This document shows positions 9,356-64,000 of a DNA stretch of 64,000 nucleotides, piece after piece. Source of the DNA: Bacteroides sp. An322 (GTDB taxonomy: Bacteria; Bacteroidota; Bacteroidia; Bacteroidales; Bacteroidaceae). Position numbers and translations under genes: made by a program. How positions within the stretch are numbered: the stretch's first letter is position 1; each line of letters starts with the position of its first letter. The notes beneath the pieces were generated by a model. It was given only the letters and a program-made list of their open reading frames with translations, searched no databases and was not told where the DNA came from. The DNA is taken from positions 1 to 64,000 of the forward strand of contig NZ_NFIN01000001.1 of the NCBI RefSeq assembly GCF_002161765.1. The letters run 5' to 3'.

Positions 9356-9367
9356 ATACAAACCACC

Positions 9368-18106: not shown

Positions 18107-18127
18107 AAACAGACACAATTTATAGAC

Positions 18128-18157
18128 AAAAAAATAAGAATGTTCGTAAACACTCTT
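18128..18157 (-). terminator. terminator downstream of the DUF4301 gene
   Basis: Read on the minus strand: AAGAGTGTT, loop TACG, AACATTCTT, then a short A and a run of seven T. One G-U pair in the stem. Confidence 0.6.
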
Positions 18158-18200
18158 ACTAATCAAACAATTAAAGCTAAACCAAGTATAGAATTTACAT

Positions 18201-18256
18201 AGTTGATAATTGATAGTTTAGCCGGCATATCAACTATAAACTATCAATTATCAACT
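18201..18256. repeat. 20 bp perfect inverted repeat
   Basis: AGTTGATAATTGATAGTTTA (18201-18220) and its exact complement at 18237-18256, just past the DUF4301 stop. Similar AT-rich hairpins lie behind galE (23364-23416) and tyrA. Confidence 0.8.
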
Positions 18257-18266
18257 GATAAAACGT

Positions 18267-19790: not shown

Positions 19791-19835
19791 ATATGATAAA
19801 TTTAAGTAATGAATAATCCTTAACCGATTACACCC

Positions 19836-19843
19836 CAAAAATA
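19836..19843 (-). promoter_or_regulatory. -7 promoter element of the DUF4301 gene (TATTTTTG)
   Basis: TAnnTTTG on the minus strand 46 bp before the chosen start at 19790; this supports that start over the upstream one. No well-placed TTTG at -33. Confidence 0.45.
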
Positions 19844-19911
19844 TAAAAAATCCGCAAATTATGCATGGATAATAAAGAAAAAAAGTAATTTTACGGTTAA
19901 ATTTAAACATT

Positions 19912-47465: not shown

Positions 47466-48392
47466 TTATAACGGAGCCTTATCACCCAAATCAGCGGCTT
47501 TTAAGAGAATTTCTACCTCTCTGACAAAACTCCGGCTATCATTCAGGTCTTTAAAGAAATCATTCCGTTTCAGGTATTTGTAATATTTCTCCTGATGTTC
47601 CTGATCAACTTTTCCTTTTTTACCAAAGTAATAATACTCTAACTGATTCAGTAAGTAACACAACAACTCGTAATTATTCATTTGAGCCTGAATGAGTTGT
47701 ACATATTTCTTTGCCATTCCCCTTGTCAATATCCCCTCTTTCTCATATTCCCGAATGATATCTACTTCATGATAAATAAACTTGAAATAGTTTTTCAGAT
47801 TCTCGTACTTGACTTTATTTCCTTTAGAGTATTCATCCACATACGACCTCCACAACGCATTCAATCCGTTTTTATCGATGATCGATTCTTTTATCTCGCG
47901 GCAATAATACAAAAAGATATTTTCTTCTTCACTTACATGCGCATCTTGAATCTTCTCATACAATTTAATGTGATGAGCAAAAAGTTGCGAAAAAAGTGTG
48001 TCAAATGAATTCCGCTTCAAAGCAAGCACCTGCCCCTTAAATGCTTCAAACGCCAATAAAACTGAAATAAAAGCAAAGACCCCAGTCATACAAGTGGCAA
48101 AATCACCCCAATCCCCCATATCGGTAGAGAACGTGCCAAAAGGAAACTCCACCTCACGGAACCAAGTCGTTCCGAATGTCAATCCGAACAAACAGGCAGA
48201 TACGGCTATCATCACGAAAAAAAACAGATACAATCGCCTTCCCAACCGTTTCAGATCACGCCTTTTTCGAATGGATATAATATACAGATATAAAATAGCG
48301 AACAGTACGATGAGTAAAAACAGTAATACAAAGCGATAGCTGTCGTGTTTTAAGGGATGTAAAGTCAAAAGAGTTAAAATAAAAGTATCCAT
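47466..48392 (-). CDS. putative phage abortive infection (AbiC-like) membrane protein
   Basis: 308 residues from ATG 48392 (an upstream in-frame TTG at 48404 is less likely). Two N-terminal membrane helices (FVLLFLLIVLFAILYLYIISI and LYLFFFVMIAVSACLFGLTF, each slightly over the visible core), a third hydrophobic stretch FATCMTGVFAFISVLLAF, then a cytoplasmic helical domain with SFDTLFSQLFAHHIKLYEKI and NLKNYFKFIYHEVDIIREYE. The layout resembles putative AbiC phage-abortive-infection proteins, which is from memory of the family pattern. It follows the accessory operon after 69 bp in the same direction without an obvious promoter or terminator between, so it may be its last gene. Confidence 0.55.
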   Translation of the reverse strand: MDTFILTLLTLHPLKHDSYRFVLLFLLIVLFAILYLYIISIRKRRDLKRLGRRLYLFFFVMIAVSACLFGLTFGTTWFREVEFPFGTFSTDMGDWGDFATCMTGVFAFISVLLAFEAFKGQVLALKRNSFDTLFSQLFAHHIKLYEKIQDAHVSEEENIFLYYCREIKESIIDKNGLNALWRSYVDEYSKGNKVKYENLKNYFKFIYHEVDIIREYEKEGILTRGMAKKYVQLIQAQMNNYELLCYLLNQLEYYYFGKKGKVDQEHQEKYYKYLKRNDFFKDLNDSRSFVREVEILLKAADLGDKAPL

Positions 48393-48461
48393 AAAAATTA
48401 ACAACCTAATTTATTTGCGTACCAACTTAAATATATCTATATGATTCCATTTATCTTATTA

Positions 48462-49124
48462 TCACTTTAAAACATCATTCAAAACTGATTGAATCTTATT
48501 TATCAACTTATTAATTTTAGTAAGAAGTTCCTGTTTTACATCAGAAGCAGGAGTATTTTGAACCTTTGCATATTCACTATTAATATATTCCTGAAGTTCC
48601 AAAACACACGATTGAACATTTTTTATTTTTTCTCCAAACTTCTGCTTTCTATCCAAAACTTGTATTTCTAAAATTCTTTTCAATATTTCAGAAGCAGATT
48701 GTCTTATACTCCAAAGTTGATTTTTACATGATTGAGAGAATTTATTATTTGCTTTAATCTGCATATCAAAAACTAAATTCTGAATTTCAAAAAGCTTTTG
48801 TCGAATTTCATCCATTTGCTGATTTTCAAATTTTGTGATAGTAACTGTACACTCTGAATTACAAAAAGAAGAGTATCCATTCTTAATCTTACGTTTTTGT
48901 AACTGACCGTCTTCTTTTTGATATTCAATAGTTTTATTATAATAATAACCTGTACCCATTATACACACTACAATAGATAATAACACCACATAAGAAATAA
49001 CCGTTATCCACCAATCCCAGCTATATTCAGCTCCTACAGATAGTATAATCACAAAAATTCCCATCGCAAAAATAACAAAGAGAACCATATCAAATTTACG
49101 GCTGAGTTTCGATGTTCTTCCCAT
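48462..49124 (-). CDS. two-helix membrane protein with coiled-coil domain
   Basis: 220 residues. Two membrane helices near the N-terminus (FDMVLFVIFAMGIFVIILSV and WWITVISYVVLLSIVVCIM) with a short outer loop, then a cytoplasmic region that is almost all helical with heptad-like spacing (MDEIRQKLFEIQNLVFDMQI, ASEILKRILEIQVLDRKQKF, LLTKINKLINKIQSVLNDVL). No family recognised. 37 bp behind the LIM/DA1-like peptidase gene in the same direction. By layout it could be a membrane anchor or effector for the proteins encoded upstream. AT-rich like its neighbours. Confidence 0.65.
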   Translation of the reverse strand: MGRTSKLSRKFDMVLFVIFAMGIFVIILSVGAEYSWDWWITVISYVVLLSIVVCIMGTGYYYNKTIEYQKEDGQLQKRKIKNGYSSFCNSECTVTITKFENQQMDEIRQKLFEIQNLVFDMQIKANNKFSQSCKNQLWSIRQSASEILKRILEIQVLDRKQKFGEKIKNVQSCVLELQEYINSEYAKVQNTPASDVKQELLTKINKLINKIQSVLNDVLK

Positions 49125-49161
49125 ATATTCAGATTTTAATCATTAAGAGATACAGCTTTAT

Positions 49162-49908
49162 TTACAAATTCCCTTTAATTGCCAAGTTGAGAATTCCTTC
49201 TGTACCCAATTCTTGATAACGGTTATAAACATATCTAAAACCATCCCCGTATATTGGGTCAGGATTCTCCATCAATGATTTAAGCAAATAAGGAGTATTA
49301 GCCGAGGTTATTTTATTGTATATAAGCCATGACCCTAAATTACACAGCCCTTCACATTTTTTAGGTTCTAACTTCACGCCATTTTCATTTTGCCAAATAT
49401 GCATAAATTCATGTGCCAAAGTCGCAGCAAATTCAATCTTTATCAAATGATCCAAGATATAAACAGAATGCGTCATCTTTGACTTTTGCCCCAATGCCAT
49501 ACCAATTAAAGATGACATAGATTTCGTTATCGTAACCCCTTTATTAGCCAAAGATATAGATGAATTACGCATTCGTGCGATTTCTGTGACTCCTACGATA
49601 TTAATACTAACATCATCTAACGTCCTATTATGAAAAAAGATATCTTCATTTGCAAAAAAATAAAGAATTTGTTTTTTTATTCTCTGTATTTGCTCCACAG
49701 AGTTTACTCCCTGAGCCATACATACCGGACACAAATGACGTCCATCTAACAATGTAAATTCAGGTGAATTATATGTAAACGCTCCACAAGAGAAGCATTG
49801 TACCGCTTCTTTTTGCTCATAATGTGAAGCACAAATACAATTACCATGTCCATCACGATAATAACGCCCGGAAATTATTGCATTACATAAATAACACTTC
49901 ATAATCAT
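49162..49908 (-). CDS. LIM-type zinc protein with DA1-like metallopeptidase domain
   Basis: 248 residues. N-terminal treble-clef/LIM-like metal site (1-70): CYLCNAIISGRYY, CICASHYE, CFSCGAF and HLCPVCMAQG, i.e. pairs of CxxC-type knuckles plus His. C-terminal peptidase: LAHEFMHIWQNE (HExxH at about residues 166-170) followed by KKCEGLCNLGSWLIYN, where the Glu after the helix is the expected third zinc ligand. This LIM+HExxH+EGxCN layout is that of plant DA1, a ubiquitin-activated peptidase, and its bacterial relatives. The start is the ATG at 49908, which shares one base with the stop of the preceding gene (TGATG); an in-frame TTG at 49911 is less likely. Likely target: a protein partner in the operon. 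Confidence 0.75.
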   Translation of the reverse strand: MIMKCYLCNAIISGRYYRDGHGNCICASHYEQKEAVQCFSCGAFTYNSPEFTLLDGRHLCPVCMAQGVNSVEQIQRIKKQILYFFANEDIFFHNRTLDDVSINIVGVTEIARMRNSSISLANKGVTITKSMSSLIGMALGQKSKMTHSVYILDHLIKIEFAATLAHEFMHIWQNENGVKLEPKKCEGLCNLGSWLIYNKITSANTPYLLKSLMENPDPIYGDGFRYVYNRYQELGTEGILNLAIKGNL

Positions 49909-50201
49909 CAATACTCATTTTCTTCTTCCTGCTCCGCAGACTGCATTTCATTCTCATAATACGAATAAACCTGTTCACGATCAGCTTTATAATCATCAAA
50001 ATTACGATCTTGTTGAGCATTATATTCCTTATACTGATCTACTTCTGCTGAAACATCTTCCCCTTTAGCCTGCTTTTCTGCTGCTTGAGCTTTAACTTTT
50101 TCTTTCTCATTCTCTACTTCATACTGACGTTGTTGATAACTATGATCCATTTCACTAAGACGTGCATCTCTTTCTTTTGCTAAATCTTCTCTTCTTCCCA
50201 T
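49908..50201 (-). CDS. small charged coiled-coil protein
   Basis: 97 residues, almost entirely charged or polar: DLAKERDARLSEMDHSYQQR, NEKEKVKAQAAEKQAKGEDV, and an acidic tail EQEEENEY. One long helix or coiled coil, no hydrophobic core of its own. It begins 20 bp behind the VirD4-type gene and its stop overlaps the start of the peptidase gene by one base, so it is translated with both. It may act as adaptor between ATPase and peptidase, or as the peptidase's substrate or inhibitor; this is inference. No known family. Confidence 0.7.
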   Translation of the reverse strand: MGRREDLAKERDARLSEMDHSYQQRQYEVENEKEKVKAQAAEKQAKGEDVSAEVDQYKEYNAQQDRNFDDYKADREQVYSYYENEMQSAEQEEENEY

Positions 50202-50221
50202 AATTTTTATAATTTAAAAGT

Positions 50222-52810
50222 TTAACATAAACGAGTCAAATTCTCAGACGCTTCTCCATAAAATTCCAAATCTTCATAATATTTAATTTTTCCACTCAAT
50301 ATAGGGAACGGGCATCTATTTTTATAAAATACAAACTGAACCCCAAATGAACTGCCTGTTGTTACCTCATACGGAGTAATTAACGGTACAACCTCTTTCG
50401 CAAGAGAAGTTCCTTCACTATGCGAAGTGCTTATTTGAATCGAACGAGAAAAAGAATAACTATCACTGTATCCCATTGACTCGCTTTTTGACATTGAATC
50501 ACCCGATGTACTTGAAAAATTAAAACCTTGATACGTATAACTATTACTTGTTCCTTTAGAATAACTAGAACCGACATTTCTTGAATTACCGAATGTTTTA
50601 GCTATTGTTTCTCCACGAGATTCTCCTTGAGTTGTTGTATAAGTCTCCTTAAATACAGTTGTATTACCTGCTGCTTTACTTACAACTTCTGCCGTAGATT
50701 GGTCATTTACTCCAAAATATTGCTGTACGTCACAATTACCAATCATACTTTCCCAATCCTTCTCATAATTAGAACGAATTTGTTCCAAATTTTGCCATAT
50801 AGTCCATACAACTACTCCTTTCGAGCGATATATGCTCATTAAATTAGGCAAATACTGAAGATTGCCCAATTGAGCGATTTCATCCAACATAAATAATAAT
50901 TTATGTTTTGCATTTGTTTTAACCGATGCCCCAAGCATACAAGTAGTAATAATAAGACGTACAAGAGGTTTATAATTTTCACCTACAAACAATATCTTAT
51001 CCATGTCAAGAACCAAATAAAGTGACATTGGGGAAATTTTTAACTCACAAATATTTATATTCGATCTAGCTAAAGATTCACCAACTCGAGGACTCGATAA
51101 GAACTCTGTTGCCTGCAAAGCAAAAGAATAAATATCATTGAAAGAACGTGCTTTACTCGCAATATTAGTGTGAAGCCAATCAATAAGATCACAAAACATC
51201 GGATGTGGGGTTTGTCTTTTCGTCTTCAAATCATTATAACTTGGCATAAGAATTTTCTCCAACAAATATTTGGGAGGTAGATTAAGCAAATCCCGAAGAT
51301 ATAACATATTACGGTCTTCATCGCCAACCGGTATCACCGTACATATATATATGATTAATCTGGCTATAAGATTTTCTGCACCATTATAAAAGAATGCACC
51401 ATTCTGATCTGTCCGTAAAATCAACGAAGAAGCCAACATTCTTGCATGATCTTCTAAATCTGGACTATTAGGTAACAAGAAATCAAGAGGGTTAATTTGA
51501 GCCTTTATCGCTTCAGGAACAACTCTGCGTGAAAACTTCTTATCATAAAAACCTATCACATCCCACGGGTCATAATAAAAGACTTGATTTCCCATTTGTG
51601 AACGTTTACGAGCTGTTGTTATAAGATTTTCACCTTTAGGATCAAGCACTACTGTAGAACCTTGATGACGCAACAAATTAGGAATAACAACTCCTACCCC
51701 TTTACCACTTCCTACAGAAGCCACAGTAAGTATATGACTGTCATAATTAGGCTTTGTATAAACAAAAGCACCGTACCCCATCTTACCAATCAAAAAACCA
51801 CCTGGCTCAAGCATTCCAGCTCGTCTAAGATCTTCAAGTTGTGCCCAACGTTGCTTACCACCATGCATTTTCTGATCATCAGGTAAATATTCAACAGGAG
51901 GAGGTGCTGTTTGTACAAACGACTTTAATTCAGGAAACACATTTTCTTCCAACTCTTCCACTTCACGCAACGATAAACTCGTTTTATGTGCATAAAAATT
52001 AAATTCACGTTTATGCATGATACGCTGCATATAATCAAATATTTCTGACACATCATAATGATCTATTTCAGAAATATCACGCATTATCTTATACTCCAAC
52101 TTCCTTTGATTATTAAAATAAACCAATGTATTGGGTTCTACATATTGCCATGGATGTTTCGGATTATCAATAAAAGTAACCGATTCGTGAGGTGATGCCG
52201 TTATTGATACTTTTTGATGCCGTTCATCATATTCCAATAAATAATTCGCATTAGGAGTAGAATAAGTCCAACTATCTTTTGTCTTTTTCTTAACATCTGC
52301 AACTTTAGCATACTTTATAAGAGTTTCTATAAACCGATTCTTTGACATGTTATTCCTTGAAATCTCACGTAAACGGTTTTCATCCATAGGATAATGAATA
52401 GATGCAATACGCTTACTTATAGCCTTACTTTTATTTACAATCAACAAAAAATTCTCCGGTGAAACAGACTTCAAATCATTAGAAAGCACTTCATAATCAT
52501 TTTTTAAATTATCATCAAGTTCATTGCAATAATTTATCAACTGACTCAATTCAAGGTATTCGTGTGAACTAACTTCAACAATATTCATCAATTTAAAAGC
52601 TTCATCTTTCAATTGAGTATTTTTCTTTTGGCACAATACAATATCATCCAATAACTGCTGTAACTTTTTCATTTTATTTCGGTTCGACACATTATTCATA
52701 TTACCGAACAACCATGAAAAGACTGTACCGAAAATCTTAAACAATCCAGACACAAGTGCCATTAGCAAATTCAACATAACGCCTAAAATAGCTGCTATCA
52801 AATTTCCCAT
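50222..52810 (-). CDS. VirD4/TraG-type coupling ATPase, standalone
   Basis: 862 residues. Hydrophobic N-terminus (LIAAILGVMLNLLMALVSGLFKIFGTVFSWLFG, split as two short helices within residues 3-36), a helical region, then a type IV coupling-protein ATPase: VASVGSGKGVGVVIPNLL (Walker A, Lys370), STVVLDPKGENL, YYDPWDVIGF, RMLASSLILRTD, LLFMLDEIAQLG (Walker B, Asp643) and VVWTIWQNLEQI with the sensor-like Gln. After about residue 700 there is an unusual Ser/Thr/Gly/Tyr-rich stretch (SSYSKGTSNSYTYQGFNFSS, SMSKSESMGYSDSYSFSRSI) before a short end domain. VirD4-like ATPases normally feed DNA or protein to a type IV secretion channel; no relaxase, VirB-type or mobilisation gene is in view. Two bp behind the GAP1-like gene. 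Confidence 0.85.
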   Translation of the reverse strand: MGNLIAAILGVMLNLLMALVSGLFKIFGTVFSWLFGNMNNVSNRNKMKKLQQLLDDIVLCQKKNTQLKDEAFKLMNIVEVSSHEYLELSQLINYCNELDDNLKNDYEVLSNDLKSVSPENFLLIVNKSKAISKRIASIHYPMDENRLREISRNNMSKNRFIETLIKYAKVADVKKKTKDSWTYSTPNANYLLEYDERHQKVSITASPHESVTFIDNPKHPWQYVEPNTLVYFNNQRKLEYKIMRDISEIDHYDVSEIFDYMQRIMHKREFNFYAHKTSLSLREVEELEENVFPELKSFVQTAPPPVEYLPDDQKMHGGKQRWAQLEDLRRAGMLEPGGFLIGKMGYGAFVYTKPNYDSHILTVASVGSGKGVGVVIPNLLRHQGSTVVLDPKGENLITTARKRSQMGNQVFYYDPWDVIGFYDKKFSRRVVPEAIKAQINPLDFLLPNSPDLEDHARMLASSLILRTDQNGAFFYNGAENLIARLIIYICTVIPVGDEDRNMLYLRDLLNLPPKYLLEKILMPSYNDLKTKRQTPHPMFCDLIDWLHTNIASKARSFNDIYSFALQATEFLSSPRVGESLARSNINICELKISPMSLYLVLDMDKILFVGENYKPLVRLIITTCMLGASVKTNAKHKLLFMLDEIAQLGNLQYLPNLMSIYRSKGVVVWTIWQNLEQIRSNYEKDWESMIGNCDVQQYFGVNDQSTAEVVSKAAGNTTVFKETYTTTQGESRGETIAKTFGNSRNVGSSYSKGTSNSYTYQGFNFSSTSGDSMSKSESMGYSDSYSFSRSIQISTSHSEGTSLAKEVVPLITPYEVTTGSSFGVQFVFYKNRCPFPILSGKIKYYEDLEFYGEASENLTRLC

Positions 52811-52812
52811 AT

Positions 52813-55800
52813 TTATTTTACATTTAAATTATGAAGCACTCTTTCTGTTAGGGCATCCATACGTATCTTAAACTCAGAATTCACGCTAACCAAATCATAT
52901 TCTACCTTATGAAAAGCCCCACGTGCTGCATTGATAATATTAGTCAAACCAAGTTCTGATTGCATGAATGTTTTTATAACTTCATCCTTTGCATCAATAT
53001 CATACCCACAATATTCCATATATCCAGTATCTGCTTTTACTAATACAAACATAAAATCAATATCTTTAGGATGACGTCCTACACTTTCTAATATAGACTT
53101 CAGTGTAGAAAATGTCCCATCAATAGAATATTTTTCTAAAGACGGATGCTCTTGAAGCCATCCGCTCATCTTTTCACTACAAGCACTAAACGTATAATCT
53201 ATCATAGAAGGATCTATTATAAATATAATCTGATTTACGTTACGATAAAAATCCATAGCAGTTTTCGATGCAGTAGAAGTCTGATTAAATTTTTCTCCCG
53301 CCACATCATAAAAAAACAAATGATAAGGTACCGGACGTAATTTTGGTGCTATAATTATCTGAATCGCACGATATGAGTCACGGACTACAGTTTGTATTTT
53401 ATCTCTAATTTGTATACGTTTAAAATTTGATTCTATATTAGTAGTATTATCTGTATCTATTTGACGGGCTAACTGACCATACTGTTCCAATATCTGATTT
53501 AAAATAGAATAAATTAAATAAGTCTTTCCAGAACTACGATGCCCAACAATGCCAATATGCCTTTCCGTTCCATAAGAAGTCGTATCACCTGCATGTATAA
53601 AACTACCACATTGCGGACATTTACGCAATAATTTATCTTTGCCCGCAATCAATAAGGTTGGCATTTTTACTTTTGTTGCAGGGTCTATGTGGGAAAATAC
53701 ACCATAAATACCAGGTTGCAATTTAACAGGATGTTTATGCATTTCATCCGCCCAATACTCTTTTTCTTTTTTACTTCCACATACAGGACATGGCCTTCTG
53801 ATTCCGTAAATTTTCATTATGCCCCCTTCTACCCCCATTAAAAAGAATATTAATGCCATCACACTTAAAGCGATTAATATAAAAACGAACAATGGCATTG
53901 CAAAAGCCGTTAATATAACATCCCAAAAATTGCGGAACAAACTTACTCCCCAATCAAAAAGATTAAGCTTGTTCATAAAATTAAAGCCCCAATTAACAAT
54001 AGCATTTCCAAAATTACGCAATGTGTCCTCAAAATAGACAATGACACCTCCCAATATTATCGGAAGACACCCCATACCTTCTTTTGCCAAAAATAAGACA
54101 ATCAGTCCCAATATCAATGAAATCCAACCGACCCAAATCAAAATAACTATTAAAATTTTAACCACCCATAAAACGCCATACGTTATTCCCCCAACAGCAA
54201 GTAAGACCAACACCGCTGAAACAAATGAAGCTAAAAGAATCCCTACATACAATGCTACATTTATGTAAGGTCCCCCATTAAACATCCATAATCGTCTCAT
54301 TCCAGTACTAGTCGGTACTCCGATAAAAGACTGAAACCAATTAGCGTTTTCCACTAATTTATAATAAAAGAAAGCCCCTATACTTGTCAAAACAAAAACT
54401 ACAACCAATAACCACATTCCTGGTGAAGCTGTCTTCACTCGATTTACAGCAATGCGATACTTTATATTAGAGTAATAATTTGAAAAAAAACTACCAGATT
54501 TTGAAGGTTTTTCTATTGCTGCTATTTCTTTCTTTATCTCAAATTCTTTTTTTAAATTTTCCTTATTATCTACTTCCGCTGTATAAAGTGCCAAAGCCTC
54601 TGATGTATAAATTTTATATACGTTATCATAACGTCCTTGATTATACCCTTTACTATTAGTCAACTTAATAGATTGCGCATATTGAGATTCTTTTTCTTGT
54701 TTTACATCATCATATTTATAATTTCGAACAAAACGAAGTTGTTTTTGTGGATAACTATATGTATAAACAGAGAGTATTTCCCCATTCGATGAACTAAAGT
54801 TAATTTCTTTCATTTGCTTCCCTTCATACTCTCTAATGCATCGCAATTTACCTGAAGCATAAATATACTCTGTTTGAACCGTTGAATTTCCACCATTCTT
54901 TGAAACTGATATCGATTGAAGAAGGTTGTCGGAATTGTAGGAAAAACTTACAAGCTCATTTGTTGTGCTTCCATCTTCGTCCTTTATTACTTTTTCTATA
55001 CTACAAAGCTGGTTGTTGTCGTTATACTGAATATTGTTAACGAACATATTTGCGGCTTTAATGCCAAGTAACTTTTCATTTTTGTCATAACTGTAAAGAA
55101 CAGAATCAATGCTGCCTTTCGAATTATAAGCTGTACTATATAGCAAATTTCCATTAGGCGTAAAACCTCTACTATATATATTTAATAAGACTCCGTTTTT
55201 ATTATATTCAGAAATTTGTATTTCTGAAGTACCCTTAGGATCACCGTAATACTCTATTCGAAAAGGATTATGATAAGCTGTTTGTCCTCCATCCAAATTT
55301 CCGCAAGACGTCATACACAAAACTGTAACAATAGACAAAATCATAAACATCTTGCCTCCCAATAACTTGCGCATCATTTTTTTTACAAATCCTGACTCTT
55401 TTTCAAGAATACTTTTTGCTTCACTTGCACTCATTTTATTAATAACGTCTTTTATTGAATAGCGGTGTAAACGAACATGATCTACAATCCAAAGAAATAT
55501 TTTTTCTTTTTTTGCCACTTTCGCATACTTCCAGTACAAATCAAGAAGTTGTGCTGTTATAGCAGCTGATTTTGAGAAATTTGAAATAAATTCTACAATC
55601 TCAGCTTTATCTGCATTATTCCTTATCCATCCTGTATACAACCGCAACATATATTCTTGGTCTACATCTATCACTTGGGCTAATTTCATATCGTCATAAA
55701 CCGGAGAACTCAGAAGCGCTCCATTATGAAGAATCAATAGTTTATTTATAGCTTCAGATTGTATGCCTTTGTCCTTCAAATTTAGGCCAATGCGTTCCAA

Positions 55801-57582
55801 TGCATTATAATCAATACTTTGAGGAGATTGCAACAAAGCATCTGCATAAGCATTTGACAAACCTTTTAAATCTAATTGACAAAGTACCGCTTTATCAAGC
55901 GCAAATATTTTATCCATAACTTGTTGTGGGAATTGACCTATTTTACGTATCAACAAATTGTCAATATCAACTTTCACTAAAGAAATGTATTCTGGATTAT
56001 GATTTATCAAATTCAACCAACGTTCTGCATTCGAATCCATTGGAAACAATGCATTAACCAATTCATACTTATTATTAAGTGCTGATTCCATAATACATCC
56101 TACCGCCACATTCATCGAATCAGCAATCAATTCGTCATCTTTATAATAATATGTCATTAAAGCCCTCCATTCATCAACATAAGGCGATGTCATCAATGAC
56201 TTAAACAAACTATCCTCTGATGGAAGTTCAATACCCGTCTTAGAAAACAACAATAATGCTGCTTCAAGACGTTCTGGATTATGTTCAATAATCTTTTGAA
56301 AATACTTATCCGTTGCGAAAAACAAATCTTTCAGCACTTCTGCTTCTTCTATATCCAATTGCAATTTATCAGGTACAATACGGTTTATTCGACAAATTAT
56401 TTCCAATGTGATTTTTACCTCACTCAATTTACAAGGATAAGCAAAAGCATCTTTTATAATTGCATTGATTTTTTGCCAAACGGAAGTTTTTTCCCGTTCA
56501 TTAAGAGGAGAAACAGAAACCATTTCCATATTCAATTTACCCACTTCCTGTAAGGTCAACATTTCTGGTGTAGAAGCAAGAACTAACAAACGATAGGCTT
56601 GTTCATAATTTACCTCTGACTTTGTACATAATTGCATATAAAGTTCTGCAATTTGATTTATCCTCTCGGCATTTCCCGTTAATGCCATCTCTTGTATTCG
56701 GTCAAATAAATAATTATCCTCTACGTTATGGCAAATGGGGACTTCTCCCCGCAAATCCACCGTAATGTGATAAGCATCAAGTGTTTCGGTTGTGTCTTTC
56801 TCATTCATAATCATCATACGCATATCTAAAGGTACACTTGATCGTCCTATTACATTCGTTTTAAAGAAAAACTGTTCTGTAAGAGAAGCCGGCATATCTC
56901 CCAATGCCATAAGAAGCGGTTCTACATCATTTTGCTTTAATTTAAGAATCACATTACGTATGTCCTTATTCTCTACATTATTTTTATAAGCCTGCAACAA
57001 AACTTTCATAACATTGGCAACAACCGGTGTTATAATCAACGAACCACCCCGATCTACAGATATTTGTCCTTCGGGCAATTCATAAGGCTCGCCTATAAGG
57101 ATGTCTAAAAATTCACGATTGGCTGAAGAACACTCTGTGTTAACAGGAATAAACAACTTTTGTCTAAGCACTTCAGATACCACTTTCATTGGCGGGACTT
57201 CGTCAAAAACCAAAATATGTGCAATATAATTAGAACCGACACGATTGGCATTACCTGAACCAGTAAAAAAGCCATAATCACCTCCCACGTACATGACCCG
57301 GGCTATCAAATATTTTATGGAGCCATCGGGCAATTGCATACTGCGAAATACATAAATATGAGGATAAATGCGATCCAATTGCGGGTTATTCTGCAAAATG
57401 TCAGCTGTAACCATCATATCCGTAGGAATATCATAATAAAGCGATGACTTCAAAAAAATATTATCAGCCAAATTCAAATCAATATTTGCACTCTTTGCCC
57501 TTACTCCAAACCCAGAAAAACCAGAAGTAAGTGATTTTTCTGAAGAACAACAAATAATTTGTCCGTATTTAAATGTATCCAT
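52813..57582 (-). CDS. giant GAP1-like membrane protein with C-terminal zinc ribbon and GTPase
   Basis: 1589 residues. (1) 1-190: resembles the GTPase-associated protein 1 N-terminal domain: YGQIICCSSEKSLTSGFSGF, YLIARVMYVGGDYGFFTGSG, RVGSNYIAHILVFDE. (2) 190-730: helical. (3) 734-760: a hydrophobic segment that reads like a lipoprotein signal, MFMILSIVTVLCMTSCGNLDGG with Cys760. (4) 770-1000: beta-rich repeats of YD type (GNLLYSTAYNSKGSIDSVLY). (5) 1055-1250: about six membrane helices, part of which (KLVENANWFQSF...) lie between. (6) Zinc ribbon CPVCG near 1261 and CPQCG near 1322. (7) GTPase 1340-1589: Walker A GHRSSGKT (Lys1353), YDVAGEKF (Asp1426), VKAD (Asp1518). By homology to conflict systems it would sense and pass on a signal at the membrane; no function is established. 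Confidence 0.75.
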   Translation of the reverse strand: MDTFKYGQIICCSSEKSLTSGFSGFGVRAKSANIDLNLADNIFLKSSLYYDIPTDMMVTADILQNNPQLDRIYPHIYVFRSMQLPDGSIKYLIARVMYVGGDYGFFTGSGNANRVGSNYIAHILVFDEVPPMKVVSEVLRQKLFIPVNTECSSANREFLDILIGEPYELPEGQISVDRGGSLIITPVVANVMKVLLQAYKNNVENKDIRNVILKLKQNDVEPLLMALGDMPASLTEQFFFKTNVIGRSSVPLDMRMMIMNEKDTTETLDAYHITVDLRGEVPICHNVEDNYLFDRIQEMALTGNAERINQIAELYMQLCTKSEVNYEQAYRLLVLASTPEMLTLQEVGKLNMEMVSVSPLNEREKTSVWQKINAIIKDAFAYPCKLSEVKITLEIICRINRIVPDKLQLDIEEAEVLKDLFFATDKYFQKIIEHNPERLEAALLLFSKTGIELPSEDSLFKSLMTSPYVDEWRALMTYYYKDDELIADSMNVAVGCIMESALNNKYELVNALFPMDSNAERWLNLINHNPEYISLVKVDIDNLLIRKIGQFPQQVMDKIFALDKAVLCQLDLKGLSNAYADALLQSPQSIDYNALERIGLNLKDKGIQSEAINKLLILHNGALLSSPVYDDMKLAQVIDVDQEYMLRLYTGWIRNNADKAEIVEFISNFSKSAAITAQLLDLYWKYAKVAKKEKIFLWIVDHVRLHRYSIKDVINKMSASEAKSILEKESGFVKKMMRKLLGGKMFMILSIVTVLCMTSCGNLDGGQTAYHNPFRIEYYGDPKGTSEIQISEYNKNGVLLNIYSRGFTPNGNLLYSTAYNSKGSIDSVLYSYDKNEKLLGIKAANMFVNNIQYNDNNQLCSIEKVIKDEDGSTTNELVSFSYNSDNLLQSISVSKNGGNSTVQTEYIYASGKLRCIREYEGKQMKEINFSSSNGEILSVYTYSYPQKQLRFVRNYKYDDVKQEKESQYAQSIKLTNSKGYNQGRYDNVYKIYTSEALALYTAEVDNKENLKKEFEIKKEIAAIEKPSKSGSFFSNYYSNIKYRIAVNRVKTASPGMWLLVVVFVLTSIGAFFYYKLVENANWFQSFIGVPTSTGMRRLWMFNGGPYINVALYVGILLASFVSAVLVLLAVGGITYGVLWVVKILIVILIWVGWISLILGLIVLFLAKEGMGCLPIILGGVIVYFEDTLRNFGNAIVNWGFNFMNKLNLFDWGVSLFRNFWDVILTAFAMPLFVFILIALSVMALIFFLMGVEGGIMKIYGIRRPCPVCGSKKEKEYWADEMHKHPVKLQPGIYGVFSHIDPATKVKMPTLLIAGKDKLLRKCPQCGSFIHAGDTTSYGTERHIGIVGHRSSGKTYLIYSILNQILEQYGQLARQIDTDNTTNIESNFKRIQIRDKIQTVVRDSYRAIQIIIAPKLRPVPYHLFFYDVAGEKFNQTSTASKTAMDFYRNVNQIIFIIDPSMIDYTFSACSEKMSGWLQEHPSLEKYSIDGTFSTLKSILESVGRHPKDIDFMFVLVKADTGYMEYCGYDIDAKDEVIKTFMQSELGLTNIINAARGAFHKVEYDLVSVNSEFKIRMDALTERVLHNLNVK

Positions 57583-57587
57583 AGTTA

Positions 57588-58784
57588 TTATTGTTTTTTT
57601 ATCGGTAATGAATAACCTAATTCATGTAATATCCACACTAACGGGTCTAAAACACGATAAGGTCTAATTTCTGATATATTTTTTGAAGGGGTAGGTTGCC
57701 CTCCAAGTGCTGAAATGCCAAAATATTTAGCATTCTTATAATGATTATTAATAGTCGTAACAAAATTATTTTCTTCCCACATAGACAATGCACCTTGAAT
57801 AGAAGCGCTTATACTATTAAAATCCGAAAGCAGAATAGGCGATCCGTCTAAATAATTACTGTTATTGGAAATTGACATTCCAGCAATTGAAGTATCTTCA
57901 AATTTATCTTCATTCGTTAATATCGCATCTATTTTGCTAAAAACCAAAGCCATTGGTTTCTGAAAATGAGCATCTCGAATGGTCGGATCTCCCTCTTTAA
58001 AATAAGTAAGCAAATTATCTATAATCAGATTATAACGTATTTTTATATCTTCTTTTATTCCTAATTTATCATGCACATAAGGAACTGCGAATGTATCCAA
58101 TAAAAATATTATCGCATCCGACTCCTTCAAAAATTTCACATTCTCTGCTATATATTTAATATCAACAAAATTTTCTCCAGCTGTATCATAAAAAACCAAA
58201 TATGCTGATTTCTTTTGAGGATTTGACAATTCATAAATTAATGGAATACGACTCTTACGATCCGTAATTCCTGTTTGACCCGGACACTTTTTCTTACGAT
58301 AAAGCTCATCAAAAAAATCACGTTCATAACGCTGTTGGGTATTATTCTTAGGATCATCTGTAACATTTGCAGCTGTGATGCCCATATCACCTAAATTACA
58401 TCCGTGACGCATCAATTCATTGATTAACGTAGTTATATAAATGGTCTTACCACTACCACGCGCTCCGATAATAGAAATAATAAATCCCTTTTTTTTCACC
58501 ATTTCTTTAGGAATACGATTGTGACAATGGGGACAAATGGTTAAATATGATTTTTCTCCACATTTAGGGCAGATTGCAAAATCGGGACATTGCCCCATTA
58601 TAGAACGAAAAAAAGAACGTTTCGGAAGAATAGGGATACCAACAGGCTTAGGATCATCTCCTCCCCAAAAACGCTCCAACACTTGATCTTTTTCAAGTGT
58701 ACAACGACCAACATTCCCGCAACGGAACTCAACTTCACTACGTTCAAATTGTTCAAAGCAAAATGGACATACAACTTTACTCAT
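57588..58784 (-). CDS. zinc-ribbon TRAFAC-like GTPase (double-GTPase type)
   Basis: 398 residues. Zinc-binding N-terminus: CPFCFEQFERSE, a second pair CGNVGRC, and ICPKCGEKSYLTICPHCHNR. GTPase core: IIGARGSGKTIYITTL (Walker A Lys113), VFYDTAGENF (Asp200), VFSKIDAIL (NKxD-like, Asp286), and GISALGG as G5. Switch DTAGE and the paired neighbour GTPase at the end of the 1589-residue protein suggest the double-GTPase families, in which two related GTPases work together. The gene is 4 bp behind the 961-residue protein gene and 5 bp ahead of the large GAP1-like gene, so it is firmly in the operon. Cytoplasmic. Confidence 0.8.
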   Translation of the reverse strand: MSKVVCPFCFEQFERSEVEFRCGNVGRCTLEKDQVLERFWGGDDPKPVGIPILPKRSFFRSIMGQCPDFAICPKCGEKSYLTICPHCHNRIPKEMVKKKGFIISIIGARGSGKTIYITTLINELMRHGCNLGDMGITAANVTDDPKNNTQQRYERDFFDELYRKKKCPGQTGITDRKSRIPLIYELSNPQKKSAYLVFYDTAGENFVDIKYIAENVKFLKESDAIIFLLDTFAVPYVHDKLGIKEDIKIRYNLIIDNLLTYFKEGDPTIRDAHFQKPMALVFSKIDAILTNEDKFEDTSIAGMSISNNSNYLDGSPILLSDFNSISASIQGALSMWEENNFVTTINNHYKNAKYFGISALGGQPTPSKNISEIRPYRVLDPLVWILHELGYSLPIKKQ

Positions 58785-58788
58785 TTTT

Positions 58789-61674
58789 CTATTTTATTTG
58801 TTGGATTTCAGAACTTATTGTCATTAAATTTGCCATCGTTCGATCAGCTGCTATCAAACGGAAAAAAAGAGGAGCCGAATTATTACGTCTTGCATAATTA
58901 AATCGAATCTTATTTTCTTTACCGACCTTTATACTGCCATTCTTAATTATAGCAACCGGAGAATAATTAACCAAATTCATAGGCGGAGTCGATTCACTCG
59001 CTAAGACGTGTAAATCGCAAGGCAATAATGAATCTGATATAAAAGTTATTTCATATTCATTTGAAGACAAAAATAACAACCGCCTCAAATTAGTCACACT
59101 AACAAATTGCACTTTAGAAGGCTTTAAATTCAAAACTTTAGTTATGGGAGGACCTAAAAGTACTTTTGAGGAAGTTTTTACCAATGACATAGCCGATAAG
59201 GATATGGACCGACTTCCTTCCGGAACTTTAATCTCATAGGTTGCACTATTTATTGCATCCCTTTCCAAATCAACTTCCTTCTTGGCTTGAGAATCGATTG
59301 AATAAGAAATACGAATTGCCGCACAATTATCCCACTTCCATTTTGCTTGCACGGTCTTGTCTATAAGACAAACGGATAAATCGGAAACAAGCTGCAGGGA
59401 TACAATGCTAACCATTGTTCCTGCTACTCCAATTGTATCTTGAATCGTTACCGGCATAAAAAAACGTTCGCCGCTAAAATCCTTATTCACAGTGCAACTT
59501 GTTCCTGTTACATTTAATCGTGCAGCTTTAAGTGTATCAATGGAAAGCAAATCATTCTTGTTATATTTAAATGGCTCATCTGCATAAAATATCGCCAACC
59601 TTCCTACTTTGGGATTATCCCAACTTATCATGGCCTTATCTTCCGTCTCTTTTATGACAATATCAACAGGCTGCGGTTTGGGCATTGGAGTAAACTGCAT
59701 AGAAGTTTCCTCCGAACGATGAATATTACCCGCTGAGTCCGTATAAATTGCTACAAAAATATAAGTATATGCCTGTCCGGTAACAAGCCCTTTATCAACA
59801 AATGCCCCTCCTGTAATAACATGAGTTTCACCCTTTAAACGGGTTATTTCTATCGATGAACGCTTTGATGGAGTGAAAGAGAACTCCAATTGCGTTTCAC
59901 TTGGATTCACTTTAATATGCTGTGGCTCGATATTTAATGTTTTCAAAACAGGCTGGCTAATTGTTGCCCCCACGGCTGATACCCTATCACCAAACTTACT
60001 ATAAACAGTATAATAATAACTTCTTTCAGGCAAGGCTGATACATCATCATAATAATTTTCCTGCGTTGTATTCAACTGTACTCCATCATTAAAAGAAGAA
60101 GATTTTGCGTTTTCTTTCCGTACCACTAAATAGGATAAAAATGAGGATTTACAACGTGTCCAAGACAATGCTACTACATTACCTTTCACCAAAGCTGTCA
60201 AACCTGTAGGTACGGGTAACGGCATCACATTCAATTTGACTAAAGCTGCCTGATAATCCGCGCAAAGGCTCAATGCTTTCAAATAATTTTCAAATTTAAC
60301 ATTGTCATCCGTCGCACCTTCTGCTTGTTTTACTAACTGTTCCGCATCTGCAATGGCTTTCTCTGCTTCTATGCGGAGTCTGTCATTTACAGCCAACTTA
60401 GCCCCTTCTTTCATTGCTGTACAGTATTTTCTTTCTGCACACAATTTCGTCACTGCCTGTCTGATATGCTGTTGTGTATTACTATATTCCTTAATTTTAG
60501 TACCTATCGCATTCAGATCCGGACATGTTGGCCAAAATTTTACAGCTGCATCAAATTCACGACATGCCCCTTCCACATCACCCATTTCAAGAGCCGCCTC
60601 TGCTATCTTCAGATGAAGCGGTGCCTCTTGCATATCAATTAATGAAAAGCCACATTCGCTGCAACGATAGTCATCATATTCTGCAGGATGCCCACATTTA
60701 GGACAAACAATATTTACAGGCATGCCACACGTACCGCAAGTTTTCGCTGTTTTATCATTCAATCCCCCACAATAACGACATACTGTCATTGTTGATACAT
60801 TTCCCTCTTCAATCTCTAACCCTGCTTTTTTGGCCGTATCATATATCAAATATTCTGCAATGTCAAAAGGAACACCATTTTTTGTACAGATGCCAAGCAT
60901 TTGCTTATATTGTTGAGGACTAATGATTTTAACCCCGGCTTTCATTTGATTGATGACAGTACGTACTGTCTCAAAACCGGCATTGCCACATGCCTTATCA
61001 TAACTTTTACGAGCTTCTTCATTTGCAAATATAGCTGTACACTCTTTAGCCAATTTATCTGTTGCATTCAACTTAGGGTCTGTTTTATTACTATCATCAT
61101 CTACGTCTTTTTTCACTTTGGCTAAGCGAACTTGCAAATCGGCTAATTTAGCAGAAGATGAAGTTCCAAGAAATTCGTATAGATTCTTCTTGCCTAATAT
61201 AGACAAAAGCTCATTCAAAGTTTTCATCTTTTTAGAATCCAATTCTTTTACGCCATCATCTTTATATTTAAAGGTTTTAGGCTTTTTCACTTTTGCGTTC
61301 AACAAACGTAAAATCTCATCTTCTGACATTTTCAAATCTGTCACAAGCTGCCGCAAATTAGCCTCTGCAATCAAGCCGTTCACTACATAAAGACTACCTT
61401 CTTCTTGCAATCTTTTACGTACTTCTATCTCCCGCTTCTTTGCTATCTCAGCATACGCCATCGCATGCTGTTGAATAACAACAGGCGATTCGTTTATCTG
61501 TTTTTTAAGTGCTGTAAGCTGTTTTTTCTTTGCTACTCCAATAACACTATATTTAGGATTGTTGACACGCTGATTATACCACTTTATCTTATCATCAATG
61601 GCTTTTAACACCATTGAAGAGTCGGTTATTGTTACATCAAGAGCTAATTCTTCATATAAATTAAAATCATCCAT
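58789..61674 (-). CDS. J-like, zinc-ribbon and fibronectin-like multidomain protein
   Basis: 961 residues, no signal peptide. N-terminal helical region (1-150) with two segments that resemble worn J domains: ELALDVTITDSSMVLKAIDD near residue 5-25 and, clearer, LYEFLGTSSSAKLADLQVRL ... AIFANEEARKSYDKACG at about 160-230; the HPD motif that drives Hsp70 is absent from both. Two zinc ribbons: CRYCGGLNDKTAKTCGTCG (about 300-320) and CPKCGHPAEYDDYRCSECG (about 325-343). TPR-like stretch 355-470 (EMGDVEGACREFDAAVKFWP). From about 480 on, fibronectin-III-like domains (VVALSWTRCKSSFLSYLVVR; ERSYYYTVYSKFGDRVS). Together with the Hsp70 genes next to it, it looks like a co-chaperone or scaffold for the system. 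Confidence 0.65.
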   Translation of the reverse strand: MDDFNLYEELALDVTITDSSMVLKAIDDKIKWYNQRVNNPKYSVIGVAKKKQLTALKKQINESPVVIQQHAMAYAEIAKKREIEVRKRLQEEGSLYVVNGLIAEANLRQLVTDLKMSEDEILRLLNAKVKKPKTFKYKDDGVKELDSKKMKTLNELLSILGKKNLYEFLGTSSSAKLADLQVRLAKVKKDVDDDSNKTDPKLNATDKLAKECTAIFANEEARKSYDKACGNAGFETVRTVINQMKAGVKIISPQQYKQMLGICTKNGVPFDIAEYLIYDTAKKAGLEIEEGNVSTMTVCRYCGGLNDKTAKTCGTCGMPVNIVCPKCGHPAEYDDYRCSECGFSLIDMQEAPLHLKIAEAALEMGDVEGACREFDAAVKFWPTCPDLNAIGTKIKEYSNTQQHIRQAVTKLCAERKYCTAMKEGAKLAVNDRLRIEAEKAIADAEQLVKQAEGATDDNVKFENYLKALSLCADYQAALVKLNVMPLPVPTGLTALVKGNVVALSWTRCKSSFLSYLVVRKENAKSSSFNDGVQLNTTQENYYDDVSALPERSYYYTVYSKFGDRVSAVGATISQPVLKTLNIEPQHIKVNPSETQLEFSFTPSKRSSIEITRLKGETHVITGGAFVDKGLVTGQAYTYIFVAIYTDSAGNIHRSEETSMQFTPMPKPQPVDIVIKETEDKAMISWDNPKVGRLAIFYADEPFKYNKNDLLSIDTLKAARLNVTGTSCTVNKDFSGERFFMPVTIQDTIGVAGTMVSIVSLQLVSDLSVCLIDKTVQAKWKWDNCAAIRISYSIDSQAKKEVDLERDAINSATYEIKVPEGSRSISLSAMSLVKTSSKVLLGPPITKVLNLKPSKVQFVSVTNLRRLLFLSSNEYEITFISDSLLPCDLHVLASESTPPMNLVNYSPVAIIKNGSIKVGKENKIRFNYARRNNSAPLFFRLIAADRTMANLMTISSEIQQIK

Positions 61675-61706
61675 AAATTCTGCTTGTTTTTAGTATTTAT
61701 ATACCT

Positions 61707-63827
61707 TTACCTTTTCCAGCTTAAATGTTTCGTTCCTCCTGAACGGCTTATCTCTTGAGCTATATTTCCAAAAGACTCCACAAGATGATCAAGGTCAGTC
61801 AACAATGCATTCTCACTGGAAGTAGATATACGCCTTAAAAACTTTTCATCGGCACCTCCGAACCCCACTGCTATAATATCCATACTTTCTTCCCGATAAC
61901 GATCGGACCATTTAACGGCTCGTTGCGAATTAGACCATACCCCATCCGTAAGTACGACAAGGATTTTTTTCTTATCTGATTTATTATTAAAAACATCATT
62001 AAACTTCCGATATGCATCCTCAAGCGGGTTATTATCATTTCCACCTCCTACATTAGGATAACTTTTAGTCCAACCTGCATCTATTTTTTTTATTGTCTTG
62101 AGCAATTCTTTTACATTATTTGAATTCCGACATACCATTTCAGCCTTATCCGCAAATCCCATAAGACCGATTTCTATATTTTCAAGATTTGGATTTCCAG
62201 CAGACAACTGCATCACAAACTCTCGCGCTGCATCACGAGCTTTAGCTACAGGTGAACCAATCATACTACCAGATAAATCAATTGCAATAATAATCGACAA
62301 AGGTTTGTGCTTTCCTCGTGGTTTCTCATACAACCAATCCAAATTCTCATCCAAATCAACTTTGCCTACATGCAAACTTATTCCGGTTTCTTGTTGTATG
62401 CCTTCTACTACAACCATACCATTCAAATCATAACTGTAACGTATCTCTATCTTTGTTCCATTGGGTTGATGTTTAATGCCGCTAAGAACATATTTACCTA
62501 CTACTATACAGTTTTTAATATCTGAACTTTCACCTTGTGTCAGATACACATCCAATGTATTATCACCATTCGGATTTGTATGATGAAGAAACTCCTTTCG
62601 CTCTGTTATGGGTATAGGTTTATTTTTAGAGATGATTATCGAATTTATATATTTTTGCCCATCCTCACTTACAGCTATTGTACCTAATGAATGACTCATC
62701 ACATCAACAATATCCATTGATGAAGCCAATTGATATTGTTGCTTGTTCATTCCACCTAAACTATATAATTGGCGTGAAACTTCTATTCCTGCCTGTATCG
62801 CAGCACCAAGAGCCACAGCTTCGTCTACATTCACTCCACGTAATGGTTCTTTACCCGACATCTCGCGCACCCAGTTCTCTACCATAGGCATTCGTGTACT
62901 TCCTCCTACAAGCAATACCCCGTCTATATCTTTCCATTTCAATCCAGCCTCTTCAAGTACAAATTCTGCCATAAACTTAGTACTACGCAATAAATGTTCG
63001 GTAAGTTGCTCAAATAATGCACGGCTGACACTGTATTTTCCTCGTACACCTTCATATCTTACAGTAATGAAACTACTTTCCTTAGCGGATAATTGCTTTT
63101 TCAGTTTCTCGCAATTGAATGCAAGGTCATTATAAGCTTCTATGGAATCACTCAAATCAAACCCATGCTCAAGTCTAAATTGCTCACTGACATAATTGAC
63201 AAGTTGGTCATCCCAGTCTTTCCCTCCAAGCTCATGATCCCCACCTGTAGACAATACATTTATACTTTTCAATGTCATTTCAAGTACGGTAACATCAAAT
63301 GTGCCGCCACCTAAATCGTAAACTAACACACGTTGTCCCGGTTGAAATTTGACCCCATACGTAATGGCAGCTGCTGTAGGTTCATTAATAATACGTAACA
63401 CTTGGAAGCCGGCGTTCCTGCCGGCTTTCATTGTTTCATTACGCTGAATGTCATTAAAATAAGCAGGAACGGTTATCACAGCTTTCGTCACCGGACTACC
63501 AAGACTCGCTTCTGCCTCCGCTTTTATCTTCCGCAACAAAACAGTAGATAAATCTGTAGGAGTATATGGCTTGCCTGCATAATGAAACACCATGTCTTTA
63601 TTCCCCATATAGCGTTTAAAAAACACGGCCACATCTTCCACTCCTGCCTGCATCATCTCCTTTGCTTCGGTACCTGCCGTTTCATTACCGGAAGAATCAA
63701 CATAAACCGCAGAAGGGATAAGTGATTCTCCATCCGTTGTTTTTACAATTACCGGCTGACCATATTCATCGATAGTAGCTATCGATGAATACGTCGTTCC
63801 GAGATCTATTCCGATAAATCGTTCCAT
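61707..63827 (-). CDS. Hsp70 ATPase fused to von Willebrand A domain
   Basis: 706 residues. N-terminal Hsp70 nucleotide-binding domain (1-370): MERFIGIDLGTTYSSIATID, VITVPAYFNDIQRNETMKAG, IINEPTAAAITYG, VYDLGGGTFDVTVLEM, VLLVGGSTRMPMV. A short substrate-binding-like beta region follows (370-500: DVMSHSLGTIAVSEDG, TLDVYLTQGES). C-terminal vWA (about 508-695) with MIDAS: AIDLSGSM (Asp517), LVVLTDGVWSN (Asp628), Thr/Ser candidates in AGWTKSYPN. vWA binds partners through a metal; Hsp70 supplies ATP-driven binding. A second Hsp70-like gene ends 14 bp upstream. This fusion is unusual compared with DnaK, which ends in a helical lid. Confidence 0.88.
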   Translation of the reverse strand: MERFIGIDLGTTYSSIATIDEYGQPVIVKTTDGESLIPSAVYVDSSGNETAGTEAKEMMQAGVEDVAVFFKRYMGNKDMVFHYAGKPYTPTDLSTVLLRKIKAEAEASLGSPVTKAVITVPAYFNDIQRNETMKAGRNAGFQVLRIINEPTAAAITYGVKFQPGQRVLVYDLGGGTFDVTVLEMTLKSINVLSTGGDHELGGKDWDDQLVNYVSEQFRLEHGFDLSDSIEAYNDLAFNCEKLKKQLSAKESSFITVRYEGVRGKYSVSRALFEQLTEHLLRSTKFMAEFVLEEAGLKWKDIDGVLLVGGSTRMPMVENWVREMSGKEPLRGVNVDEAVALGAAIQAGIEVSRQLYSLGGMNKQQYQLASSMDIVDVMSHSLGTIAVSEDGQKYINSIIISKNKPIPITERKEFLHHTNPNGDNTLDVYLTQGESSDIKNCIVVGKYVLSGIKHQPNGTKIEIRYSYDLNGMVVVEGIQQETGISLHVGKVDLDENLDWLYEKPRGKHKPLSIIIAIDLSGSMIGSPVAKARDAAREFVMQLSAGNPNLENIEIGLMGFADKAEMVCRNSNNVKELLKTIKKIDAGWTKSYPNVGGGNDNNPLEDAYRKFNDVFNNKSDKKKILVVLTDGVWSNSQRAVKWSDRYREESMDIIAVGFGGADEKFLRRISTSSENALLTDLDHLVESFGNIAQEISRSGGTKHLSWKR

Positions 63828-63841
63828 GCTCTCTTTATCAA

Positions 63842-64000
63842 TTATTGCATTTTCAATGCATTGACTTTCTTTATTTCTTCTTCTATTTCTTCCTGGCTCA
63901 GCATATTACCTAACTTGATATCCATGTGGCGTTTTGCATTGCTTGGCTTATGCTCTACATCAATGCTTAACAATCCATTTTGATCAATATTAAAAACGAT
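63842..64000 (-). CDS. Hsp70-like chaperone, C-terminal end (partial)
   Basis: The window holds 52 residues: IVFNIDQNGLLSIDVEHK, broken by PSNAKRHMDIKLG, then LSQEEIEEEIKKVNALKMQ. This matches the end of the Hsp70 substrate-binding beta domain (DnaK: FDIDANGIL... followed by LSEEEI) but stops where the helical lid would begin, so the protein lacks a long lid. It belongs to the same operon as the Hsp70-vWA gene 14 bp downstream and may be the second chaperone of the system. The rest lies outside the window. Confidence 0.7.
   Translation of the reverse strand: MVFNIDQNGLLSIDVEHKPSNAKRHMDIKLGNMLSQEEIEEEIKKVNALKMQ

Follow-up and report, generated by a model that had tools for sequence, protein, structure and literature searches.

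Why should one bacterial operon hold Hsp70-type chaperones, paired GTPases, a conjugation-type ATPase and a zinc metallopeptidase? The question is raised by a locus in Bacteroides sp. An322 (GCF_002161765.1, contig NZ_NFIN01000001.1), of which the analysed stretch, positions 1 to 64,000, is referred to here as the window. The locus is a 12-gene operon, entirely on the minus strand and running in a single direction from 67431 to 48462, in the downstream order M274, S117, GrpE, Hsp70, Hsp70-vWA, J-like/zinc-ribbon/Fn3 protein, zinc-ribbon DO-GTPase, fused GAP1-N2/membrane DO-GTPase, the VirD4-like ATPase (D4), S97, the DA1-like peptidase (DA1) and TM220, with intergenic distances of 21, 13, 28, 14, 32, 4, 5, 2, 20, -4 and 37 bp. 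We are highly confident that it is a GAP1-N2-type double-GTPase system of the Hsp70/GrpE theme, in which HSP70 and GrpE genes are linked as they are here, and that it lies in an acquired chromosomal block and carries an accessory D4-S97-DA1 cassette. A preliminary description, made from the window alone, had proposed at least nine co-directional genes with gaps of 1–37 bp. The frames are real, at the stated places and on the minus strand, with one 4-bp overlap besides; it missed the operon start, where M274, S117, GrpE and most of the first Hsp70 gene lie beyond the window end at 64,000.

A chaperone and GTPase core that recurs in other genomes

The soluble zinc-ribbon DO-GTPase, named as a zinc-ribbon GTPase from the outset, passes the DO-GTPase2 cut-off, and its paired and further cysteines (C6, C9, C22, C72, C75, C84, C87) are invariant in 23 sequences, as are S111-G112-K113, D200-T-A-G-E204, K284 and D286. 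The following gene had been described as a GAP1-like membrane GTPase; both elements are present, as two parts of a single 1589-aa frame. Specifically, GAP1-N2 (residues 1 to ~735) is followed by a hydrophobic segment with a lipobox-like CMTSC, a probably exported region, three further hydrophobic segments and a second DO-GTPase (1342–1566). The C-terminal half scores 30.7 bits against DO-GTPase2 (cut-off 27), and the GAP1-N2 profile (PF20013, cut-off 24) gives 22.6 bits with the whole frame and 24.0, at the cut-off, with the first 763 aa; at E 1e-3 it matches 16 of 18 chosen proteins. Fusion is the rarer arrangement: separate genes encode GAP1 and the membrane GTPase at 19 of the 20 relatives' loci that show both halves, and the two share one frame in the window and in locus L017. 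About 12 of the 19 two-gene loci, judged by eye, have a lipobox-like start to the membrane GTPase gene, and at L011 that gene is separate and scores 32.8 bits. From the four hydrophobic segments we infer that GAP1 and the GTPase would both be cytoplasmic, with a region of ~290 residues outside.

The two Hsp70-type proteins score 392.9 and 353.6 bits against the HSP70 Pfam model, and the vWA part of Hsp70-vWA matches PF00092 (4.4e-16, 60.0 bits), with the DxSxS and LTDG motifs present in all 22 aligned Hsp70-vWA proteins. In the 961-aa J-like protein the double zinc ribbon claimed for it is borne out (DZR 28.0 bits, cut-off 27.3), but the Fn3 and DnaJ assignments stay below threshold (fn3 19.0 bits, cut-off 25; DnaJ 10.7 bits, cut-off 27.8). 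In J-proteins generally, the HPD motif goes with the usual stimulation of Hsp70. None of the 26 aligned rows with the J-like domain has HPD at that position, so the domain probably meets Hsp70 without the usual stimulation; four of 30 rows (L011, L018, L019, L050) are missing the domain, and the L013 protein has an HPD elsewhere in its first 300 residues.

Within the family, the 398-aa GTPase is found in three of 301 genomes, its own included. A profile of the 23 GTPases located 40 loci in species genomes, of which, judging by record titles, 30 belong to Bacteroidota and the other 10 to Firmicutes or Coriobacteriales; the genes around them were scored by phmmer with the window proteins. Hsp70 and/or Hsp70-vWA is present at 27 of the 40, and at 17 GrpE, Hsp70 and/or Hsp70-vWA, the J-like protein, the GTPase and GAP occur all together; GrpE and Hsp70 stand without Hsp70-vWA at L016, L017 and L020–L022. 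The remaining loci are ended by contig edges, are too divergent for the queries to reach, or represent a second type, with the GTPase alongside a tubulin-like protein (at L034, for example, PF13809 at 19.7 bits, below the cut-off of 27). The core recurs in other genomes, and the proposal of one linked system is upheld.

The D4-S97-DA1 cassette

The call of a VirD4-type ATPase was sound: D4 matches T4SS-DNA_transf and its Walker A and B residues are invariant in 33 sequences. It belongs to a discrete family of ~860 aa, with a score gap of 405 to 231 bits, and D4 makes up a separate side of one edge (support 0.88). Its N-terminal ~310 aa have no match in plasmids, and none of 2695 plasmid records covers at least 80% of it. 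Among solved structures, a single relative by sequence was obtained at E 0.001: Cag5, which carries the name of a Cag pathogenicity island protein.

S97, for which "small coiled coil" is the wording of the preliminary description, has same-position homologues at L017 (z 27 against shuffles) and at L061 (z 24), and the tails of the three proteins have at most three contiguous acidic residues. S117, a 122-aa protein of L061 and a 102-aa protein of L085 were rejected as S97 relatives (z no higher than 3.1, against at least 22 for the true set). DA1, first described as LIM/DA1-like and here called a zinc-finger/DA1 protein, passes the Pfam cut-off with its catalytic motif intact: H167, E168 and H171 (HExxH) and E187 are invariant in 26 sequences, the zinc-finger cysteines are present, and the structure model (pLDDT 93.5) is zincin-like by VIA-align.

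The three genes keep the same order at three loci, following the core in the window and at L017 and preceding it in Prevotellamassilia (L061). The cassette lies 11 bp directly before GrpE at L061, and D4 lies 2 bp from the core in the window; L011 has DA1 without D4, 94 bp after the membrane GTPase. Among 42 searched genomes (those of all 40 loci plus two handles, two of the positive handles being one genome), D4 was found in three at E 1e-20 and DA1 in four, which, besides the window's genome, amounts to two distinct genomes for D4 and three for DA1. The preliminary expectation of recurrence holds for the core, whereas the cassette is rarer: D4 occurs in one of 393 genomes of the order and in one of 395 of the class, the window's own in each case, and in none of 268 genomes of L011's family, while searches of 151 and 58 genus genomes returned just the known context in each. 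Linkage was also assessed indirectly, through identical longest-contig size between the assemblies of two proteins, against an offset control. Ten of 68 D4 proteins coincided in this way with one of 120 listed GTPase proteins (~0.2 expected), compared with none of 52 ordinary coupling proteins; DA1 coincided with D4 in 4 of 45 cases (0.09 expected) and with the GTPase in 3 of 45 (0.11 expected).

A coupling-type ATPase also accompanies the GTPases in Clostridia. At L049, the J-like gene is separated from the GTPase gene by two genes for ATPase-like proteins. The first of these proteins, with Walker A and B present, is of the TrwB/TraD type (PF10412 9.1e-38), the second (8732–9937) lies just under the cut-off (PF12696 0.0005), and the two are probably an active/inactive pair, to judge from their motifs. 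A search of 246 genomes of L049's family gave two more holders of the first ATPase, G1016 and G1145; in G1016 (L085) the same pair stands directly before the GTPase, GAP1 and the membrane GTPase. Given that the first L049 ATPase scores only 29 bits against the D4 profile, the clostridial ATPases are likely a recruitment separate from that of D4.

A second DA1 was observed in Prevotellamassilia genome G689, the one entered under two handles, on contig C193 (L062 2–9921, and L089). Its long operon also has genes for a papain/lipase-like protein of 1275 aa, for a vWA protein and for a tubulin-like protein with a strong match (PF13809 132.5 bits). The 27.6-kb contig gave no GAP1 or GTPase match, and the operon is possibly another system using DA1.

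Genomic setting of the operon

As had been noted, the block is AT-rich relative to core genes, with a G+C content of 32–39% at 48 to 64 kb (the operon) against 43–50% at 4–16 kb, and of 44–54% in the 16 kb past the operon start. In the 19–20 kb next to argR, six same-genus genomes have none of the genes found here from 46460 to 70451, and three of the six lack them beside the TPR gene as well. A GTPase match is absent from the whole genome in five of the six, the sixth being outside that search. In the nearest relative, G293, the two flanks lie ~95 kb apart. Because the block is absent in these relatives and its flanks are separated in G293, it is an accessory block that sits at a rearrangement; a clean empty insertion site was not found. 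No tRNA and no tandem repeats were found at the locus, and direct or inverted repeats, none of them convincing, occur at the downstream edge only. A promoter scan gave 81 sites where 80 were expected, and terminator-like sites numbered 18 against 10 expected. As to origin, a phage or virus source was rejected with no GTPase match in phages and no confirmed GTPase, D4 or DA1 match in viral contigs, and a plasmid source with two distant Rhodococcus GTPase matches and none for DA1.

At the operon's downstream end, TM220, the candidate last gene (Table 1), has by hydropathy the two hydrophobic segments described for it; a SLATT assignment was rejected (SLATT_1 13.4 bits, far under the cut-off of 41). 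The AbiC-like protein does follow directly, as stated, but its AbiC match falls just short of threshold, PF16872 (putAbiC) giving 21.1 bits under a cut-off of 22. Divergent from the operon start lies what is by eye a probable histidine kinase and response regulator pair (67913–70451; L004 3913–6451), not found beside argR in the six relatives. At 1043–1552 of the window is a gene that we take to resemble a Vsr-type endonuclease.

Table 1. Genes of the operon and the gene directly downstream, in the order of transcription of the operon
Feature	Coordinates	Strand	Size (aa)	Features and profile matches
M274	66607-67431	-		Membrane protein; one weak N-terminal hydrophobic segment; beyond window
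S117	66232-66585	-		Small charged protein; beyond window
GrpE	65478-66218	-		PF01025 5e-16, 59.2 bits; beyond window
Hsp70	63842-65449 (63842..64000 in window)	-	535	PF00012 2.2e-105, best stretch 4-346
Hsp70-vWA	61707..63827	-	706	Hsp70 to residue ~485, then vWA; PF00012 2.7e-117
J-like/double zinc ribbon/Fn3-like protein	58789..61674	-	961	
Zinc-ribbon DO-GTPase	57588..58784	-	398	PF19993 (DO-GTPase2) 30.2 bits, cut-off 27
Fused GAP1-N2/membrane DO-GTPase	52813..57582	-	1589	One frame
D4, VirD4-like ATPase	50222..52810	-	862	PF02534 (T4SS-DNA_transf) 5e-51, 174.4 bits
S97	49908..50201	-	97	Charged; acidic, tyrosine-ending tail
DA1, zinc-finger/DA1-like zincin metallopeptidase	49162..49911	-	249	PF12315 33.0 bits, cut-off 25
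TM220	48462..49124	-		Two hydrophobic segments, then probably helical part; candidate last operon gene
AbiC-like membrane protein	47466..48404	-		57 bp downstream of TM220; operon membership unsure

Possible functions of the operon

We give roughly an even chance to our best overall explanation, in which the operon would encode a membrane-based machine for sensing and response that has a motor-protease arm; its family suggests a role in defence. As a mechanism read from the sequences, such a sensing and response machine is put forward tentatively. A trigger, most likely phage or conjugative invasion to judge by the family, would be met by the Fn3-like part of the J-like protein, by the membrane GTPase through its probably exported region, or by both, a step suggested by the topology and by Kaur et al. 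The two DO-GTPases with GAP1 would form the switch, as the invariance of the soluble GTPase's nucleotide-binding motifs in its relatives suggests. Hsp70, Hsp70-vWA and GrpE, recruited by the J-like domain that lacks HPD, might then remodel or threshold the complex. D4, a predicted VirD4-type ring ATPase, would pull DNA or protein at the membrane, and DA1 would cut a substrate, possibly the acidic tail of S97 or a target delivered by D4.

One can imagine a more specific version, which we consider unlikely to hold in full: conjugation-type ATPases would have been taken at least twice (the VirD4 type in Bacteroidales, the TrwB/TraD type in Clostridia) from DNA transfer into a chaperone-GTPase immune machine, as a motor that seizes invading DNA or protein at the membrane and either passes it to the DA1 zincin or unleashes that zincin. 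The S97-DA1 pair may itself serve as a precursor-peptidase signal in which an acidic, tyrosine-ending tail is trimmed.

Several observations weigh against a sensing and response machine armed with this motor and protease. D4 and DA1 matches are absent at 36 of the 40 core-GTPase loci, many of them ended by contig edges (the D4 match of L049 being the distant clostridial ATPase), and because of this absence the cassette is accessory to the core. L017 has the whole cassette with no Hsp70-vWA seen, so that Hsp70-vWA is not needed with the cassette. The co-location drawn from identical longest-contig sizes is indirect; the second DA1 (L062/L089) has a tubulin-like protein as its companion, GAP1 and GTPase matches being absent. 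In Clostridia, the second ATPase of L049 has no Walker A, and in G1145 the 26 kb read around the first ATPase contain neither a GAP1 nor a GTPase match. Furthermore, known defence genes were identified beside the core at two loci only, L018 and L020, with no control.

At L018, the next genes after a tubulin-type GTPase operon are Cas9 and Cas1 (15988–21168), and at L020 the GrpE end of the core has beside it two genes for cytosine methyltransferases and one for a type II restriction enzyme (409–4255); such neighbours, counted with no control, agree with a conflict role. PADLOC, run on 64 flanking proteins at E 1e-10, matched 156 models, with at most two members per model among the matches listed, again with no control. 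At two tubulin-type loci, L035 (13669–15309) and L034 (15216–16988), the GTPase genes are followed by a TIR-like gene that stays below threshold and a MORN-repeat gene with a strong match.

Chief among the alternatives is a machine for envelope stress or protein quality rather than for conflict, in which the membrane GTPase would sense envelope damage and the chaperones, motor and protease would clear misassembled membrane proteins. We regard it as possible, if somewhat doubtful. The probably exported region, the lipobox-like signals, the hydrophobic segments and the conserved vWA sites would all suit such a machine, and a DO-GTPase family protein has been predicted to act in membrane-related stresses (PMC11237479). 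The patchy distribution is unusual for a maintenance function, however, with the GTPase in three of 301 family genomes and D4 in one of 393, own genome included, and the cassette can stand at either end of a core that itself lies in an accessory block.

Coupling proteins can also serve as secretion receptors, and D4 might in that case be the substrate receptor of a device that exports DA1 or other effectors to neighbouring cells. The relationship to Cag5 is consistent with this; it is an improbable reading all the same, given that no channel or mating-pair genes were seen by eye in the operon or its flanks and that DA1 has, by hydropathy, no hydrophobic signal segment.

Less probable still is a remnant of a conjugative element, with D4 as an ordinary coupling protein, as its match to T4SS-DNA_transf at 5e-51 might suggest. 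The preliminary description had reported no conjugation genes by the VirD4 gene and had held that such genes beyond the window would speak against a system of this kind. None were seen by eye among open reading frames (ORFs) of at least 90 aa in the 16.5 kb past the operon start, or in the 48 kb on the other side (ORFs of at least 150 aa below 44 kb), not all of these having been profile-searched. This origin was rejected on the lack of visible conjugation genes and of a full-length plasmid match to D4; the separateness of the D4 family and the same neighbours at three loci also stand against it. Least probable of all is a D4-S97-DA1 unit beside the core by chance, for although most cores are seen without the cassette, the unit recurs in three genomes, at both operon ends and with gaps to the core of 2 and 11 bp, and the contig-size coincidences exceed the control.

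Comparison with known systems

It is informative to examine the operon in light of what has been predicted for its relatives. The GAP1-N2/DO-GTPase literature that we found is comparative genomics, GAP1-N2 systems with HSP70, GrpE and a DnaJ-FNIII protein having been predicted in 2020, their conflict role likewise as a prediction (Kaur et al. 2020, PMC7159879). In the Hsp70/GrpE theme the FNIII protein is fused to a DnaJ domain or to TPR. The suggestion that the system as a whole is undescribed is not supported. The window operon shares with these systems the zinc-ribbon DO-GTPase, a second GTPase with transmembrane segments, GAP1-N2, HSP70, GrpE, a second HSP70 and an FNIII-like protein with a J-like part (fn3 and DnaJ being below cut-off here), and the split of our loci into two types matches themes 1 and 2 of these systems. 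It differs in its host order, Bacteroidales, in the fusion of GAP1 to the membrane GTPase, in Hsp70-vWA and in a J-like domain without HPD, as well as in the added D4, S97 and DA1. The main text of PMC7159879 holds no occurrence of VirD4, TraG or DA1; it does describe FtsK ATPase domains, predicted to be inactive, as effectors in VMAP systems, another class. The claim that the combination with VirD4 and DA1 is unnamed fared better, since it was not found in the literature searched, which left most subscription journals outside. Nine window proteins scanned with PADLOC gave no model better than E 0.0014.

The three added proteins likewise have known counterparts. With the type IV coupling proteins (VirD4/TraG/TrwB), D4 shares an NTPase domain with Walker A and B, a hydrophobic N-terminus and a C-terminal part; it differs in its N-terminal part of ~310 aa, in the lack of relaxase or channel genes seen by eye, and in its linkage to chaperones and GTPases. 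DA1 has in common with its family the zinc-finger cysteines, HExxH with a Glu further on, and the DA1-like Pfam match; it differs in being a bacterial form of 249 aa whose operon also encodes chaperones and GTPases. The S97-DA1 pair recalls the VMAP/FtsH pairs of zincin and small precursor (PMC7159879), in which, as here, the zincin gene overlaps the gene of a small protein whose C-terminus is acidic; in contrast to the pairs set out in that source, S97 is conserved and its tail has no more than three contiguous acidic residues, and no VMAP or radical-SAM gene was seen in the operon.

A gut Bacteroidales example, in one stretch of ~20 kb, makes the prediction testable in laboratory Bacteroides, and the D4 Walker A and DA1 HExxH active sites can be killed by point mutation. 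If the prediction is right, coupling-protein motors would also be at work outside DNA transfer. The core, then, had already been predicted; what is new against the text consulted is the addition of D4, S97 and DA1, and the occurrence of the core in the phylum of the Bacteroidales, which the consulted part of PMC7159879 does not name for it.

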